Source: Mannheimia haemolytica
GTDB lineage: Bacteria > Pseudomonadota > Gammaproteobacteria > Enterobacterales > Pasteurellaceae
Assembly (NCBI RefSeq): GCF_004342115.1
Contig: NZ_SMAC01000016.1
Coordinates: forward strand, 1 to 64,000
Reading direction: 5' to 3'
DNA length: 64,000 bases
Made by a program: the position numbers and the translations under genes. Positions within the stretch are counted from its first letter, which is position 1; each line of letters begins with the position of its first letter. The notes beneath the pieces are model-generated. The model saw only the letters and a list, made by a program, of their open reading frames with translations, made no database searches and was not told where the DNA came from. Below are positions 25,155 through 57,382 of this stretch, piece after piece.

Positions 25155-25230
25155 TCCTCCTTAGTTCAGTCGGTAGAACGGTGGACTGTTAATCCATATG
25201 TCGCAGGTTCGAGTCCCGCAGGAGGAGCCA
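25155..25230 (+). tRNA. tRNA-Asn (anticodon GUU)
   Basis: 76 bases with the acceptor stem TCCTCCT/AGGAGGA, D-arm, anticodon GTT at 25188-25190 flanked by CT and AA, T-arm GCAGGTTCGAGTCCCGC and encoded CCA. It is a single tRNA with its own strong promoter. Confidence 0.97.
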
Positions 25231-51281: not shown

Positions 51282-51385
51282 AACCCCATACGAGCCGTAT
51301 GGGGTTCAATAAGCTGAGCACACGCTGTGACTTTGTAAAATCCCAGAGGGACTTATTATGTAACCTAGCACTTCTCGTGCTAGGT
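51282..51385 (-). repeat. Intergenic four-hairpin array A
   Basis: Read on the minus strand, four short stems follow each other. H1 is ACCTAGCAC/GTGCTAGGT (51385-51363), overlapping the esterase stop codon. H2 is AGTCCC/GGGATT (51353-51339). H3 is CACA/TGTG (51329-51319). H4 is AACCCCATACG/CGTATGGGGTT with loop GCT (51306-51282). The order and several stem sequences match array C at 57260-57359. Confidence 0.75.
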
Positions 51386-52234
51386 GCTTTGAATAAATTT
51401 TATCGTCGCTTGAATCAATTCCTCTGTATCTTTCGATTGTTCATCTCGGTCGAAATCGTGTAATTCGGCGGCGATGACAAATTTGGTTGGGTTGAATTTT
51501 TCGCACAGGGCTTGAAACTCTGCAAACGGCACATCAGGGTCGTTTGTGGCGTGAGCAGCGAAAATCGGTAGATTTAATTCCGCCAAACGTAAGCTGTAAT
51601 CGAGGTAGAAAAATTTATCTCTGCCCTGATAAATTAATGATTTCCACTTGCCAGTTTGGCGAGCGTGAACATAACAACTGAAATGTGTGTTTAAATCAGC
51701 TTCTTGGCTTGGAGTGGCTATTAGTGATTGAACGGTATTTTCAATGACTAATGGTAATTTTAAATAGTGTGGGCTTGGGCTATCAAACCAACCATCTTTC
51801 AAAAAGCCATAACCATAATAAGAGATAACACCTTTTGGCTTTTCAATTTCTATTTGCTGGCTAAGTCTGACAGCAGTCAGTAATGCAAGATAAGCTCCAG
51901 CAGAACGTCCGAATAAAAAATAAGGGAGTTCTAGGTGTAGCTGGTTCTGTAAATGTTTTATAGATTGTTGAATGGAGCTTATAATTTCCTCAATCTGAGC
52001 CTGTGGTGCAAGCGGGTAATTTATTGCAAAAATTTGCAAACCAGCTTGAGTAAATGTTTCAAGATGTCGTTGAGGCAAATCCTCTTTTGTACCATAAAGT
52101 AGGCCGCCGCCGTGTAGATAAATAAGATTCGCTTTAGGTGCGATATTATCATCTAGATAATGGGTTGCTTCAATTACAAGAGCTGTGTCTTGGACTTGAA
52201 CCGTATTTAATGTGATTTGTGTTGCTTTTAGCAT
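51380..52234 (-). CDS. Alpha/beta hydrolase, acetyl-esterase-like
   Basis: 284 residues. An alpha/beta hydrolase of the hormone-sensitive-lipase-like type with oxyanion motif YLHGGGLLYG near residue 42, nucleophile elbow GRSAGAY near residue 110, Asp in NDPDVPF and His in ELHDFDRDE. The substrate is unknown. It lies inside the allantoin island, divergent from allE with an operator-like palindrome between, so it may be co-regulated. The last codon and stop lie inside hairpin H1 of array A. Confidence 0.8.
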   Translation of the reverse strand: MLKATQITLNTVQVQDTALVIEATHYLDDNIAPKANLIYLHGGGLLYGTKEDLPQRHLETFTQAGLQIFAINYPLAPQAQIEEIISSIQQSIKHLQNQLHLELPYFLFGRSAGAYLALLTAVRLSQQIEIEKPKGVISYYGYGFLKDGWFDSPSPHYLKLPLVIENTVQSLIATPSQEADLNTHFSCYVHARQTGKWKSLIYQGRDKFFYLDYSLRLAELNLPIFAAHATNDPDVPFAEFQALCEKFNPTKFVIAAELHDFDRDEQSKDTEELIQATIKFIQST

Positions 52235-52247
52235 AATGAACCTCTAT

Positions 52248-52269
52248 TTTTGTATATTATAGTACAAAA
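52248..52269. promoter_or_regulatory. Operator-like palindrome between esterase and allE
   Basis: TTTTGTA (52248-52254) and TACAAAA (52263-52269) with an 8-base AT spacer, in the 73-base divergent gap. It may bind the unseen regulator of the island. It does not match the E. coli AllR site as I remember it. Confidence 0.45.
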
Positions 52270-52307
52270 TAATTCAACTTAACTTATATAAAAAGAAGGA
52301 GAATATT

Positions 52308-53093
52308 ATGGGATATTTGAATGGTCAAACAGGTTATCGACAAGGATTACTTGAAACACGTTCGGTAATTCGTAAGCATAATTTTGTGATTTTGGAAACA
52401 GATGGTTTAGTGAGAAATAGTATTCCAAATTACCATAACTGCGATATTAGTATTTTATCCTCTCCTGCACTCGGTGCATCTTTTGTTGATTATATTGCTG
52501 TAGTTCACCCGAATGGTGGCTGCACACAATTAGGTGGTAACGGTATTGAGGTTTTTGTTTATTTGATTAGCGGGCAGCTCGCTGTTAAAAATGGTGATAC
52601 TGATGTGGTTCTAGAAAGCGGTGGTTATATCTTTTCGCCTGCCGATCAAGTGCTGAGTTTTATCAATAAATCGGAACACGCTACTAAAATCTATATTCAC
52701 CGTCGCCGTTATACCGCGTTAGAAGGTCACCAGGCAATCACTTATGTAGGTAATGTGAATGAAATCGACTATGTTGAATATGAAGGAATGAAAACCTGTT
52801 TAATTAAAGATTTACTTCCTTCTGCAACTGATTTTGGCTTTGATATGAATATGCACATTTTGTTATTTAAGCCTGGTGCGTCGCATGGTTATATTGAAAC
52901 GCACTTCCAAGAACACGGAATGCTGTTTCTTTCAGGTAAAGGAATGTACCGTTTAGATGATGAATGGATTCCTGTGAAAAAAGATGATTATGTTTTTATG
53001 GATTCCTACTGCCCACAAGCCTGTTATGCGGTAGGTGATGAGGATTTTGTCTATATCTACTCGAAAGAGTGTAACCGTGATGTAGAACTTTAA
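52308..53093 (+). CDS. allE: (S)-ureidoglycine aminohydrolase
   Basis: 261 residues, bicupin (formerly YlbA). It begins GYLNGQTGYRQGLLETRSVI, nearly the family consensus. The C-terminal cupin carries the Mn ligands in GASHGYIETHFQEHGM (Glu, His, His) and FMDSYCPQACYAVG. It removes ammonia from ureidoglycine to give ureidoglycolate. AGAAGGAG lies before the ATG. First gene of the allE-allD-fdrA/ylbE-allK series; allD follows after 21 bases. Confidence 0.95.
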   Translation: MGYLNGQTGYRQGLLETRSVIRKHNFVILETDGLVRNSIPNYHNCDISILSSPALGASFVDYIAVVHPNGGCTQLGGNGIEVFVYLISGQLAVKNGDTDVVLESGGYIFSPADQVLSFINKSEHATKIYIHRRRYTALEGHQAITYVGNVNEIDYVEYEGMKTCLIKDLLPSATDFGFDMNMHILLFKPGASHGYIETHFQEHGMLFLSGKGMYRLDDEWIPVKKDDYVFMDSYCPQACYAVGDEDFVYIYSKECNRDVEL

Positions 53094-53114
53094 TTTAACG
53101 TTGAGGAATTGACA

Positions 53115-54167
53115 ATGAAACTATCAAGAGAAGAATTAAAAGGCTTAATGAAAGCTAAATTAATGAAAGCGGGTTTAAACGATCAGCACGCAGATATTAC
53201 AGCAGAAATTCTGACGTGGTCTGATGAACGTGGCTACCACTCTCACGGTGCCGTTCGTATGGAGTATTATTGCGAGCGTATTTTTAAAGGTGGCATCACA
53301 CATAATCCTAAATTTGAATGGAAAGAAACAGGGCCTGCCTCAGCGATTTTTGAAGGCGATAACGGCTGTGGTTATGTCGCTGCAACCTTTGCGATGGAAA
53401 AAGCGATTGAAATGGCGAAAAAATCGGGCATTGCAATTGTAGGTATCCGTAACATTTCTCATAGTGGTGCGATAGGATATTACACAGAAATGGCAGCGAA
53501 AGAAGGCTTGTTATCTATTTCATTTTGTCAATCAGATCCTATGGCGGTGCCTTATGGCGGTTCTGAACCTTATTACGGCACAAACCCAATTTCTTTTGCA
53601 GCACCTGCAGATGAAGGCAGAAATGTCGTGTTTGATATGGCAACGACCGTTCAAGCTTGGGGTAAAATTTTAGATAAGCGTTCTCGTGGCGAATCTATTC
53701 CACCAGATTGGGCAGTTGATGTTGATGGCAATCCTGTAACCGATCCGAACAAAGTGAATGCTCTAGTACCAATTTCTGGAGCGAAAGGTTATGGTTTAAT
53801 GATGATGGTAGATATTTTCTCAGGTATTTTATTAGGGGTACCATTTGGCAAACACGTTTCTTCAATGTACCACGATTTATCGGAAGGTCGTCGTTTAGGT
53901 CAAATGCATATTGTGATTGATCCTGCTTGTTTCTGTGGTGCAGAACAATTCCGTGAAAATATGGCACAATCAATTAATGAACTAAATGAAATGTCTCCAG
54001 CACCAGGTAACGATAAGGTGTATTACCCAGGGCAACGTGCTGAAATGCGTCGTGATAAATACGCTGCAACAGGTGGTATTGAAATTGTGGATAAAGTCTA
54101 TGAATACTTAATCAGTGACGATATTCATTTTGACCGCTACGATCATAAAAACCGTTTTGCGGACTAA
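53115..54167 (+). CDS. allD: Ureidoglycolate dehydrogenase (NAD+)
   Basis: 350 residues from the ATG at 53115 with GAGGA upstream; a TTG two codons earlier is not needed. LDH2/MDH2 oxidoreductase family: DERGYHSHGAVRMEYYCERI, GIRNISHSGAIGYYTEMA with the catalytic His, NPISFAAPADEGRNVVFDMATT, and SGAKGYGLMMMVDIFSG. It oxidises ureidoglycolate to oxalurate. The stop is followed, 12 bases later, by hairpin array B and then fdrA-ylbE. Confidence 0.95.
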   Translation: MKLSREELKGLMKAKLMKAGLNDQHADITAEILTWSDERGYHSHGAVRMEYYCERIFKGGITHNPKFEWKETGPASAIFEGDNGCGYVAATFAMEKAIEMAKKSGIAIVGIRNISHSGAIGYYTEMAAKEGLLSISFCQSDPMAVPYGGSEPYYGTNPISFAAPADEGRNVVFDMATTVQAWGKILDKRSRGESIPPDWAVDVDGNPVTDPNKVNALVPISGAKGYGLMMMVDIFSGILLGVPFGKHVSSMYHDLSEGRRLGQMHIVIDPACFCGAEQFRENMAQSINELNEMSPAPGNDKVYYPGQRAEMRRDKYAATGGIEIVDKVYEYLISDDIHFDRYDHKNRFAD

Positions 54168-54178
54168 TCTTATCATAT

Positions 54179-54225
54179 AGCCATAGTGTGGCTGAATTCA
54201 AAGAACCCTATACAGCTTGTATAGG
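54179..54225 (+). repeat. Intergenic hairpin pair B
   Basis: AGCCA/TGGCT (54179-54193) and CCTATACA/TGTATAGG with loop GCT (54207-54225), linked by GAATTCAAAGAAC. This corresponds to H3 and H4 of array C, with base-pair-preserving changes. H4 ends 24 bases before the next start codon, exactly as in array C. Confidence 0.7.
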
Positions 54226-54248
54226 CTTATAAAATTAGGAAGAATAAT

Positions 54249-57248
54249 ATGTTAAAAACAGTAGTAAAAAAAGGCAGCTACCAAGACTCGGTAGTGTTAA
54301 TGTTGCTCACTAATGCCATTTCAGGCTTAGAAGGGGTAAATAAAGTATCTGTAATGATGGCAACCCCAGCAAACAAAGATATTTTTGCTCAAAGTGGCTT
54401 AGACACCGCGGAATTATTAGAAGCGACCGCCAACGATATGGTGGTAGTCGCAGATGTTGATCAAGAAGATGTGATCAATGTGGTAATGGAAAAAGTAGAA
54501 GCATTTTTAAAACAGAAATCTCAAGCAAGCTCGTCTCACAGCGGTACGGAAGTGGTAAAATCTTGGAATAAAGCGACCGCTTCTTTGCCAGGTGCAAACT
54601 TGGCGGTGATTTCAATTCCAGGTGCTTATGCTGCATTGGAAGCGAACCGTGCGTTGGATGAGGGATTAAACGTTTTTATGTTCAGCGATAACGTAAGTGT
54701 GGAAGATGAGAAAGCGTTAAAAGAAAAAGCACATCGTAAAGGTTTAGTGGTAATGGGGCCAGATTGTGGAACAGGGATTATCCAAGGTGTGCCGATTGCA
54801 TTTACTAACAGCGTAACGCCAGGTTCAATCGGTATTATTGGTGCGTCTGGTACGGGTATCCAAGAATTAACCACGATTATCGACCGCTTAGGCGAAGGCG
54901 TGGAAAATGCGATTGGTACGGGGGGGCGTGATTTATACGAAGACATCGGTGGTATCACAATGTTAGATGCTATTGAAGCGATGGAACAAAACGACAAAGT
55001 AAAAGTGCTGATCGTGATCTCTAAACCACCAGCAAAAGCGGTACGTGAGAAAATCTCTGCTCGCTTAAGCCGTTATAGCAAGCCTGTTATTACCTTATTC
55101 TTGGGCGAAAAACCAACATTCCATGAAGAAAACTTCTATCACGCTTACACCCTAGACGAAGCGGCTCGTTTAGCGGTGGCATTAGTGCGTCAAGAGCCAA
55201 TTCCAACATTTGCAAAAAATTCGACAAATTCGACCGCTTGCGGTAAAACCTTAAAAGCCTACTATTCAGGCGGTACGTTGGCTGGCGAGGCGGCAATGCT
55301 GCTGAAAGATGCGTTACGCATTGAAGGCAGCGGCTCGAAAGCCGATGGGTTTATGTTCAAACAAGATGGACACATCGTGGTGGATTTAGGCGATGATATT
55401 TATACTCAAGGCAAACCGCACCCGATGATTGACCCCGCCAAGCGTATTGAATCTATGCGTGATGCGGTTGATGATGCGACTACTGGCGTGATTTTATTCG
55501 ACATTGTGTTAGGATACGGCTCGCACGAAGATATGGCAACAGCCTTAATTCCGACCATTCAAGAACTGCAACAAAAAGCTAAAGCTCAAAGCCGTGATGT
55601 TGCTTTTGTGGCAACCGTATGCGGTACTCGCAGCGATTACCAAGGCTATGATGAAACCGTGCGTAAATTGGTAGAAGCAGGCGTTGAAGTATGCGAAACC
55701 AATAAAGCTGCAGTAGAAAAATCATTAGATTTATTAGGTTTACCATTTGATGAGCCAACCAAACCAATCCAGCCGAAAACCGTAGTGCAAGGCGAAAATA
55801 GCCCAGCTTCTGAGCAGTTATTACGCTTATTATCTGAAAAACCTAAAATCATTAATATTGGTTTGAAAAGTTTTGCAGATGTAGCAGAAAAATTTGGCTG
55901 CCAAGTAGTGCAATTTAACTGGCAACCTCCAGCAGGTGGTAACATTCAGTTGATCAAAGCACTGAATTTCTTAAACGAATATGAAGCGGTGGATATTGAT
56001 GAGGCAAATCGTAAAGTGATTGCTAAGGTTGTGGCAGCCACACCAATTATTCGTGATAATGTGTTGGCAAAAACGGTGATCAAAGAGCTAAACGATGGCA
56101 AAGTGATCTTACACGCTGGTCCACCAATTCAATACAAAGATATGCCGAACACGGTGCAAGGTTCTTGCGTTGGGGCAGTATTATTTGAAAAATGGGCGAC
56201 AGATGAAGCCTCGGCTCGTGCTTTATTAGAAAACGGCGACATTACATTTATGCCGTGCCACCATGTGAATGCGGTGGGTCCGATGGGCGGAATCACGACA
56301 GCAAATATGCCTGTTTGGGTAGTAGAAAATGCTACAGATGGCAATTTCGCTTACTGTACAATGAATGAAGGTATCGGTAAGGTATTGCGTTTTGGTGCGT
56401 ATTCAGATGAAGTGGTGAAACGTTTAGAATGGATGCGTGATGTATTAGGTCCAACACTTGGCAAGGCAATCCGTTCAATGGAAAACGGTTTGGCAGTCAA
56501 TCCACTGGTGGCGAAAGCGATTGCGATGGGGGATGAGTTCCACCAAAGAAATATTGCAGCCTCAATGTCTTTCTTCAAAGAAGTTGCTCCTCGCATTACT
56601 GCAATGAGTGATTTGGCAGAAAATGATAAATACGATGTGATTAAATTTTTAGCGGATACCGATCAATTCTTCTTAAACATTATGATGGCAAGCTGTAAAG
56701 CGATTATGGACGGGGCGAGAACCATTACAGAGGGTACGGTTGTGACTGCAATGTGTCGCAATGGGGTGCATTTTGGTATTCGTATTGCGGGTATGGGCGA
56801 TGAATGGTTTGTTGGCCCTGTGAATACACCACAAGGCTTGTATTTTACTGGCTATGACGGCGAAGATGCTTGCCCTGACATTGGCGACTCAGCCATTACT
56901 GAAACCTTAGGTGTGGGTGGTTTGGCTATGATCGCCGCACCAGCGGTAACTCGTTTTGTGGGGGCTGGCGGTTATGAAGATGCTCTTCGCACCAGTAACG
57001 ATATGATGGAAATTTGTATCGACCGTAACCCTAACTACATTGTGCCGAACTGGAACTTCCAAGGGGCTTGCTTAGGTGTTGATGCAAGATTAGTGGTTGA
57101 AAAAGGCATTACCCCTGTAATCAACACAGGTATTGCCCACAAAGTGGCTGGTTTCGGTCAAATTGGTGCAGGCACAGTACGCCCACCACTAGCTTGTTTT
57201 GAAAAAGCTGTGCTTGCGTATGCGAGAAAGTTAGGGTTTAACGAGTAA
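54249..57248 (+). CDS. fdrA-ylbE: FdrA-YlbE fusion (AllF-AllG), oxamate carbamoyltransferase
   Basis: 999 residues in one uninterrupted frame. Residues 1-515 resemble FdrA, a succinyl-CoA-synthetase-like protein, with VVMGPDCGTGIIQG, IGASGTGIQE and GTGGRDLYEDIGG. After a linker at about 500-530, the rest is DUF1116/YlbE: PPAGGNIQLIKALNFLN, FMPCHHVNAVGPMGG, GIRIAGMGDEWFVGP. In E. coli these are two proteins (555 and 419 residues). They are reported, with YlbF, to split oxalurate with phosphate into oxamate and carbamoyl phosphate. An uptake word at about 55207-55241 lies in the coding sequence. Carbamate kinase follows. Confidence 0.92.
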   Translation: MLKTVVKKGSYQDSVVLMLLTNAISGLEGVNKVSVMMATPANKDIFAQSGLDTAELLEATANDMVVVADVDQEDVINVVMEKVEAFLKQKSQASSSHSGTEVVKSWNKATASLPGANLAVISIPGAYAALEANRALDEGLNVFMFSDNVSVEDEKALKEKAHRKGLVVMGPDCGTGIIQGVPIAFTNSVTPGSIGIIGASGTGIQELTTIIDRLGEGVENAIGTGGRDLYEDIGGITMLDAIEAMEQNDKVKVLIVISKPPAKAVREKISARLSRYSKPVITLFLGEKPTFHEENFYHAYTLDEAARLAVALVRQEPIPTFAKNSTNSTACGKTLKAYYSGGTLAGEAAMLLKDALRIEGSGSKADGFMFKQDGHIVVDLGDDIYTQGKPHPMIDPAKRIESMRDAVDDATTGVILFDIVLGYGSHEDMATALIPTIQELQQKAKAQSRDVAFVATVCGTRSDYQGYDETVRKLVEAGVEVCETNKAAVEKSLDLLGLPFDEPTKPIQPKTVVQGENSPASEQLLRLLSEKPKIINIGLKSFADVAEKFGCQVVQFNWQPPAGGNIQLIKALNFLNEYEAVDIDEANRKVIAKVVAATPIIRDNVLAKTVIKELNDGKVILHAGPPIQYKDMPNTVQGSCVGAVLFEKWATDEASARALLENGDITFMPCHHVNAVGPMGGITTANMPVWVVENATDGNFAYCTMNEGIGKVLRFGAYSDEVVKRLEWMRDVLGPTLGKAIRSMENGLAVNPLVAKAIAMGDEFHQRNIAASMSFFKEVAPRITAMSDLAENDKYDVIKFLADTDQFFLNIMMASCKAIMDGARTITEGTVVTAMCRNGVHFGIRIAGMGDEWFVGPVNTPQGLYFTGYDGEDACPDIGDSAITETLGVGGLAMIAAPAVTRFVGAGGYEDALRTSNDMMEICIDRNPNYIVPNWNFQGACLGVDARLVVEKGITPVINTGIAHKVAGFGQIGAGTVRPPLACFEKAVLAYARKLGFNE

Positions 57249-57259
57249 AATCCTGCATT

Positions 57260-57359
57260 AACCTAGCCAAGGCGTGCTAGGTTGAATAAACCAAGTCCTA
57301 GGGCTTTATGAGCCACGGCGTGGTTGAAATAATAGAACCCCATACGGCTCGTATGGGGT
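57260..57359 (+). repeat. Intergenic four-hairpin array C
   Basis: H1 is AACCTAGC/GCTAGGTT (57260-57283). H2 is AAGTCC/GGGCTT (57293-57306). H3 is AGCCAC/GTGGTT (57311-57325). H4 is ACCCCATACG/CGTATGGGGT with loop GCT (57337-57359). It starts 11 bases after the fusion-gene stop and ends 24 bases before the carbamate kinase start. H4 equals H4 of array A. Confidence 0.75.
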
Positions 57360-57382
57360 AGTAGGGATAAAAAGGAGAAATA

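Follow-up and report, generated by a model that had tools for sequence, protein, structure and literature searches.

Hairpin arrays in the allantoin island of Mannheimia haemolytica belong to a Pasteurellaceae family of inverted double hairpins resembling REPINs and PATEs, with a candidate IS200-type transposase often in the his operon of relatives

The window analysed here is a stretch of 64,000 nucleotides from Mannheimia haemolytica (contig NZ_SMAC01000016.1), and three gaps between genes of its allantoin island carry strings of short hairpins, arrays A, B and C (Table 1). A preliminary description had placed strings at these gaps, with four hairpins in the same order (H1 to H4) in A and C and the last two alone in B, and both arrays and order are confirmed. 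RNA folding against dinucleotide shuffles gave z scores of -5.57 for A and -4.37 for C, with 0/200 shuffles folding as well, and a weaker -2.28 for B (3/200 shuffles as good). A covariance model of the family, R1, matches five half-arrays here and finds nothing else in the window at E<=1, in line with the earlier remark that the window holds no further string. The arrays are copies of one element of ~105 nt.

Table 1 Arrays, hairpins, model matches and related loci. Plain positions are those of the window; others carry our working handles for contigs (C) or loci (L) of the genomes compared.
Feature	Position	Strand	Details
Array A	51282-51384	minus	four hairpins, order H1-H4
A H1	51364..51384	minus	CCTAGCAC stem, mutated loop; holds the TAG stop of the esterase-like gene
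A H2	51338..51354	minus	AAGTCCC-TCT-GGGATTT, one wobble
A H3	51316..51332	minus	degraded; orthologs GAGCCAC-AAN-GTGGCTC or near
A H4	51284..51304	minus	CCCCATACG-GCT-CGTATGGGG
A, half matched by R1	51284-51333		51.9 bits
A, half matched by R1	51338-51384		39.0 bits
Esterase-like gene adjoining A	51380-52234		284 aa
Array B	54179-54225	plus	H3-H4 only, the right half
B H3	54179..54193	plus	AGCCAT-AGT-GTGGCT; left half absent here, both halves in the gap of G015 and G032
B H4	54207..54225	plus	CCTATACA-GCT-TGTATAGG
B, match to R1	54178-54226		36.2 bits
Array C	57262-57360	plus	four hairpins, order H1-H4
C H1	57262..57281	plus	degraded: 1-nt deletion and changes
C H2	57293..57307	plus	AAGTCC-TAG-GGCTTT, shortened
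C H3	57311..57325	plus	AGCCAC-GGC-GTGGTT
C H4	57338..57358	plus	CCCCATACG-GCT-CGTATGGGG
C, half matched by R1	57310-57358		46.7 bits
C, half matched by R1	57262-57306		24.2 bits
Full copy in this genome (copy D)	C25:22928-23032
Full copy in this genome	C25:6932-7037		found by DNA search, full on reading
Degraded copy in this genome	C25:26865-26977
H1-H2-only copy in this genome	C30:6650		DNA search with the C25 copy
arcC-gap elements in relatives	L242:8547-8655, L243:8654-8760, L244:1533-1641, L245:8622-8730
Example tnpA in a relative	L168:2138-2581		147 aa; elements at 2020-2133 and 2582-2695
MITE-like unit	L077, L060, L078, L088, L020, L068, L076		flanks
MITE-like unit	L062:563-667		compared with L019 ~1765

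Two positional statements of the preliminary description hold in part. The arrays do start close to stop codons; in the case of A, it is the element itself that supplies the stop, a TAG within H1. The spacing of 24 bases between H4 and the next ATG is real in the window and is not conserved, being ~18-31 nt by eye at the orthologous C sites. Array C is an unlikely intrinsic terminator, no T-run following its H4.

R1 was built because a DNA-level search with one copy recovered the family incompletely. Scanning a collection of named genomes for exact H1 returned 100 stretches with 105 H1 copies, in which H1 variation is under-sampled; these gave 76 units with a script-found H4 and 26 non-redundant ones. 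Twenty-two loci yielded 43 distinct halves; four were left out (three with a poor short stem and one further half of such a locus), and the remaining 39, which include no sequence of the present genome, make up R1. When right halves are reverse-complemented, they align with left halves over 49 positions as a single unit, linker included: The element is an inverted pair of ~49-nt double hairpins, each half consisting of a 9-bp stem with a 3-nt loop, a linker of ~11 nt, and a 7-bp stem with a 3-nt loop. Typical hairpins of the named-genome copies are CCTAGCACG-AGC-CGTGCTAGG for H1, CAGCCCC-GCT-GGGGCTG for H2, GAGCCGC-AGA-GCGGCTC for H3 and CCCTATACG-GCT-CGTATAGGG for H4. The change of the H4 stem from CCCATACG to CCTATACA, noticed at the outset, is present, and both kinds of stem (CCCCATACG and CCCTATACG) recur across the family; the covarying pairs that set B apart from A and C match family subtypes.

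The stems covary among the 39 halves. Both sides have changed at 9/16 pairs, a number reached in 9/500 shuffles, and the alignment holds 142 double-change cells, which 0/500 shuffles attained; slid controls pair 26-40% of cells. The proportion paired in the alignment (A4), 98.9%, is inflated, since A4 was built from intact copies, and one of five measures did not exceed the shuffles: further pair types numbered 16, below the shuffled mean of 20.1. The informative part is the near absence of GU intermediates (1/624 cells, among copies selected for being intact), which points to selection or correction that would act on the DNA. By reading, copies within one genome have species-specific sequence in common.

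The family is widespread within Pasteurellaceae. R1 matches 55/121 Pasteurellaceae genomes in 20/43 genera (per-genome counts taken among the best 50 candidates), and in a sample of the order, among the best 30 candidates of each genome, 5/197 genomes match at E<=0.001, all five of them Pasteurellaceae. Titles returned with the exact H1 are likewise all from this family: Actinobacillus, Bibersteinia, Mannheimia, Nicoletella, a Lonepinella MAG and further Pasteurellaceae. A covariance search of this family had been proposed in the preliminary description, with a lack of further covarying copies, or of a conserved order in relatives, named as the result that would count against it; we looked for that result and instead recovered many further copies with the same hairpin order. 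In the present genome R1 matches 15 times at E<=0.01; at E<=1 it matches 20 times, with two of these overlapping others on the opposite strand. H4 without mismatch occurs once more in this genome, at C25 (Table 1). Directly after copy D (~23033 of C25; 8035-8045 of L004) lies the uptake-signal-like sequence ACAAGCGGTC, which also follows some copies in relatives (L031 and L091).

The 76 elements at named loci sit mostly outside genes, 3/76 overlapping an ORF of at least 90 aa. By raw counts with no baseline of gap types, 34 lie co-directional between co-directional genes, 14 opposite, 18 between convergent genes and 0 between divergent genes (66 scored), the remaining 7 being at a locus edge. 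The earlier statement that the strings follow the direction of their gene holds as a tendency, then, and copy D itself is oriented opposite to hisA. Again as raw counts without that baseline, the bias fits avoidance of gaps that hold only promoters.

Orthologous gaps in relatives differ in whether they hold the element. Gap A contains it in genomes G092, G080, G112, G015 and G032 and lacks it in G060, G035 and G018. At gap B, G015 and G032 carry both halves, only the left is recognisable in G080 and only the right in G112; G092 shows a weak remnant, and G060, G035 and G018 show nothing. In gap C the element is present in the window and in G112, G015 and G032; other palindromes take its place in G080, G092 and G060, and the gap is just 9 nt (G035) or 17 nt (G018) long by eye in two other genera. 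In G060, a close relative, R1 matches none of the gaps, and a fourth gap of the island, after arcC, carries a full element in G080, G112, G015 and G032 and not in the window. Where the element is missing from gaps A-C (G060 and other Mannheimia; L240-L242), unrelated palindromes such as GGGCGTACTGCGTACGCCC or GGGGCAAATTGCAATTTGCCCC are often found, and these gaps appear to collect palindromic repeats.

Orthologs of A and C show 0 double changes in 250 cells (6 gapped cells set aside), with 10 GU, 13 AC and 6 other mismatches, and no excess of GU over AC that would indicate a pairing bias for the H1-to-H4 strand. Because A and C change without compensation or RNA-strand bias, the covariation belongs chiefly to the mobile family and to a lesser degree to the loci in the window. 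Orthologs of B have 15 double-change cells, perhaps through replacement of one subtype by another; they leave room for a local role at this site.

These results bear on the suggestion, made in the preliminary description, of a structured RNA or an element of mRNA processing or stability. In that reading the arrays would be conserved mRNA structures (3'-end stabilisers, processing signals or attenuators) selected locally in each operon. Stable folding as RNA, the double changes at site B, the retention of elements in these gaps over several Mannheimia genomes and the position of elements beside or between genes, with none between divergent ones and the excess of co-directional over opposite copies, are all what it would lead one to expect. 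The scarcity of GU in the family, the uncompensated change of A and C, the absence of half the hairpins from B and the lack of copies in G060 argue against it. Rfam, which had been proposed as a comparison, adds no RNA family for the arrays: At the gathering threshold the window matches only a tRNA at 25155-25227, outside them. We regard local mRNA function as improbable.

A second possibility is that the inverted repeats arose by chance, or that replication template switching perfected palindromes that have no mobility. Template switching can create double Watson-Crick changes with no GU intermediates, and to that extent it would account for the covariation. It would not lead one to expect half-elements in nearly half of the sampled Pasteurellaceae genomes and in 0 sampled genomes outside the family, species-specific sequence common to the copies within a genome, or variable presence at orthologous gaps, and we consider this explanation very improbable.

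The his operon drew attention through its clusters of elements: In the hisC-hisB gap several relatives encode a protein of 146-147 aa whose gene has an element on each side (example in Table 1). The layout is long hairpin, short hairpin, gene, short hairpin, long hairpin. The protein, TnpA, is a single-tyrosine HUH transposase of the IS200/IS605 type, ~150 aa long: It scores 95.9 bits with PF01797 and 79.4 with NF033573 (cut-off 55), and it matches PDB chains that include ISDra2-type and ISHp608 transposases. Strong homologs (at least 90 bits) are encoded in 39/121 Pasteurellaceae genomes, with 1-3 in each genome that has one. The 53 rows of strong matches represent 52 loci, of which we examined 50, excluding one with stops (G117) and a fragment (G048). 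The HUH pattern is present in 48/50 of these proteins and the tyrosine-helix pattern in 47/50. In the order sample, TnpA is found at E<=1e-15 in 5/197 genomes, all of them Pasteurellaceae; among 72,556 plasmid records two match at that threshold, both below 35% identity. Of 29 pairs compared, 22 are unsaturated in dS, with dN/dS of 0-0.11 in 21 and 0.29 in one, indicating purifying selection. The present genome has no TnpA match at E<=1e-5.

The his operon is the residence of most tnpA genes examined. It holds 38 of the 50 loci (23 in the hisC-hisB gap, 12 in hisH-hisA and 3 in hisF-hisI), all 38 co-directional with the operon, and the other 12 are elsewhere. In a tree of 49 proteins, which leaves out the frame-broken L218, the gap occupied is strongly clustered, requiring 8 changes where shuffled labels need 23.0 on average; hisF-hisI forms one clade and the other gap labels need several changes. 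One his operon in G098 (L162, C1:2466000-2480000) contains eight copies of the element, whether full or degraded, in ~9 kb, most of its gaps having one.

Hairpins of this kind lie beside tnpA more generally. An R1 match at E<=1, a threshold that admits many weak ones, is found within 130 nt of the gene on both sides at 22/50 loci, on one side at 13 and on neither at 15, and seven of these 15 are hisH-hisA loci with another double hairpin visible. Independently of R1, at least two perfect hairpins (stems of at least 6 bp) occur in the 125-nt flank upstream at 28/50 loci, downstream at 27/50 and on both sides at 16/50, compared with 28/622 control windows, most of them in coding sequence. At 38/50 loci each side has one perfect hairpin or more, and inverted double hairpins are visible in most of 30 flanks inspected.

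The hairpins also differ with the transposase clade. A hisH-hisA-type long hairpin, CCTAGGGTA...TACCCTAGG, occurs in 20/121 genomes: in 13/14 genomes of that TnpA clade, in 0/9 of the R1-type clade, and in 7/107 genomes without that clade. Conversely, R1-type halves are present in 9/9 genomes of the R1-type clade and in 6/14 of the hisH-hisA clade, and five of those six hold further TnpAs; since some of the halves in R1 came from species of the R1-type clade, the R1 side of this matching is not independent. The hisH-hisA-type hairpin has 1-3 copies in most genomes of its clade, often just the ends of tnpA, with ten in G059, and therefore not every TnpA lineage spreads its hairpins widely.

Among the 121 genomes, 31 have both the element and a strong TnpA, 24 the element alone, 8 TnpA alone and 58 neither (Fisher P 2e-7, ignoring phylogeny). 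The element-only genomes, which make up 24 of the 55 element-bearing ones and include this genome and G020, are the main weakness of an account based on TnpA. Possibly they lost TnpA after the elements had spread, and passages of PMC3733652 report such loss of the transposase after spreading for the REPtrons of E. coli. G020 has 44 halves among its best 50 candidates and, in place of a strong TnpA, two weaker Y1_Tnp matches.

Such element-rich genomes without TnpA would also be explained if the elements owed their movement to another enzyme, be it a RAYT working in trans or a DDE transposase that moves a MITE containing them, and the flanks of tnpA simply had the same sequence. Many copies in three Actinobacillus genomes (A. 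porcinus, A. minor and an uncultured Actinobacillus) do lie within a larger MITE-like unit (Table 1) with the inverted ends CAGATTGCTGACAAAG and TTTGTCAACGGTCTG, and both ends were found by pattern in 13 copies. These units sit at terminator-like hairpins, which in several copies are found complete (~20 nt) on either side and were apparently duplicated at insertion. The only empty and filled sites compared base by base, from A. porcinus and uncultured Actinobacillus, involve this larger unit with its inverted ends and apparent target duplications; they are not an IS200-like event, and at least one lineage, in Actinobacillus, seems to have used another route of spread. By reading, no such inverted ends accompany the listed copies of Mannheimia, A. 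capsulatus, Pasteurellaceae 15-036681 and LFhippo2, nor did we see DDE-type MITE inverted repeats with a target-site duplication around the copies in the window. The match between TnpA clades and their hairpins is a further argument against another enzyme, and a RAYT of the present genome is rejected as the mover: Its three Y1_Tnp matches adjoin other palindromes. Mobilisation by another enzyme is in our judgement unlikely. The three genes (L110, L111 and L112, on C33, C9 and C7) lie beside GACGGGC...GCCCGTC or GCACAAGCGT...ACGCTTG, and L110 has its best score with the RAYT model, 72.7 bits, just below the cut-off of 80.

Taken with these alternatives, the arrays of the window are probably transposase-less, REPIN- or PATE-like derivatives of an IS200-type element resident in the his operon, now decaying in this genome. 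Each array would be a non-autonomous mobile DNA element, or the relic of one, composed of two inverted halves. TnpA is predicted to recognise the hairpins in single-stranded DNA, to cleave and transpose through a single-strand intermediate, and so to copy or move elements that lack tnpA into intergenic gaps, as is thought of RAYTs and REPINs. Selection that keeps the hairpins of mobile copies recognisable would maintain the Watson-Crick covariation, and template-switch correction of the palindromes may contribute. In this strain TnpA was presumably lost rather than never gained, after which the copies would decay. We saw no precise TnpA insertion and located no insertion of the plain element to the base, and inspection of the flanks by eye revealed no fixed short insertion target. 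A more ambitious proposal is that tnpA belongs to an operon-resident, REPIN-like system that has lived in at least three his gaps and seeds gaps such as those of the allantoin island, residence in his being a targeting or regulatory trait; this we put forward tentatively, as an idea somewhat more apt to prove wrong than right.

The preliminary description had also considered a REP-like repeat family, and this comparison is apt in organisation and not in signature. Like REPINs as portrayed in passages of PMC3116915, PMC2817692 and PMC8266576, the elements are dispersed, mostly extragenic inverted doublets of palindromes; a candidate transposase gene stands beside inverted palindromes, and the hairpins match transposase clades. 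The transposase itself resembles RAYTs, as described in those passages, in being low-copy, nearly absent from plasmids and under purifying selection, as a housekeeping gene would be. In contrast to REPs, neither the GTAG nor the CGTC tag accompanies any of the 105 H1 copies (GTAG within 8 nt 5' of H1, 0/105; CTAC within 8 nt 3' of H4, 0/68 scored), and unlike RAYTs, 0/50 TnpA proteins have the NP(L/V)(R/K)xG motif, the one protein scanned scoring 28.1 bits with NF047646 (cut-off 80). Each half here has two hairpins, moreover, and most examined transposases are in the his operon. Since GTAG is absent from 105/105 copies and the RAYT motif from 50/50 proteins, we do not file the element under REPIN-RAYT, although it would function like that system. 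The RAYT-associated REPs of Haemophilus, GTAGGGTGGGCTTcAGCCCACC, are GTAG-tagged single hairpins according to passages of PMC2817692; they share with the present family a Pasteurellaceae host, palindromic form and an adjoining tyrosine transposase, and are unrelated in sequence.

With IS200/IS605 elements such as ISDra2 and ISHp608 the system shares a single-tyrosine HUH TnpA of the same family and hairpins at both ends; it differs in its paired hairpins at each end, its residence mostly in one operon and, in the R1-type clade, an excess of copies lacking tnpA over copies of tnpA. PATEs and other IS200-derived MITEs are non-autonomous elements that have the palindromic ends of an element with a Y1 transposase. 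Compared with PATEs as generally understood, the element described here is ~105 nt long, has four hairpins and almost no internal sequence, and belongs to Pasteurellaceae. In our searches of the open-access literature we recognised no account of the element, nor of Pasteurellaceae his operons with an IS200-type transposase.

The family would give Pasteurellaceae a counterpart to the REPIN-RAYT system in which an ordinary IS200/IS605-type TnpA takes the place of the RAYT, and it bears in this way on the origin of domesticated transposases. The clade-specific matches between TnpA and hairpins offer natural pairs for testing hairpin recognition, and the concentration of tnpA in his gaps is directly testable. 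The finding also accounts for strings of intergenic hairpins that annotation would otherwise label as RNA structures or terminators.
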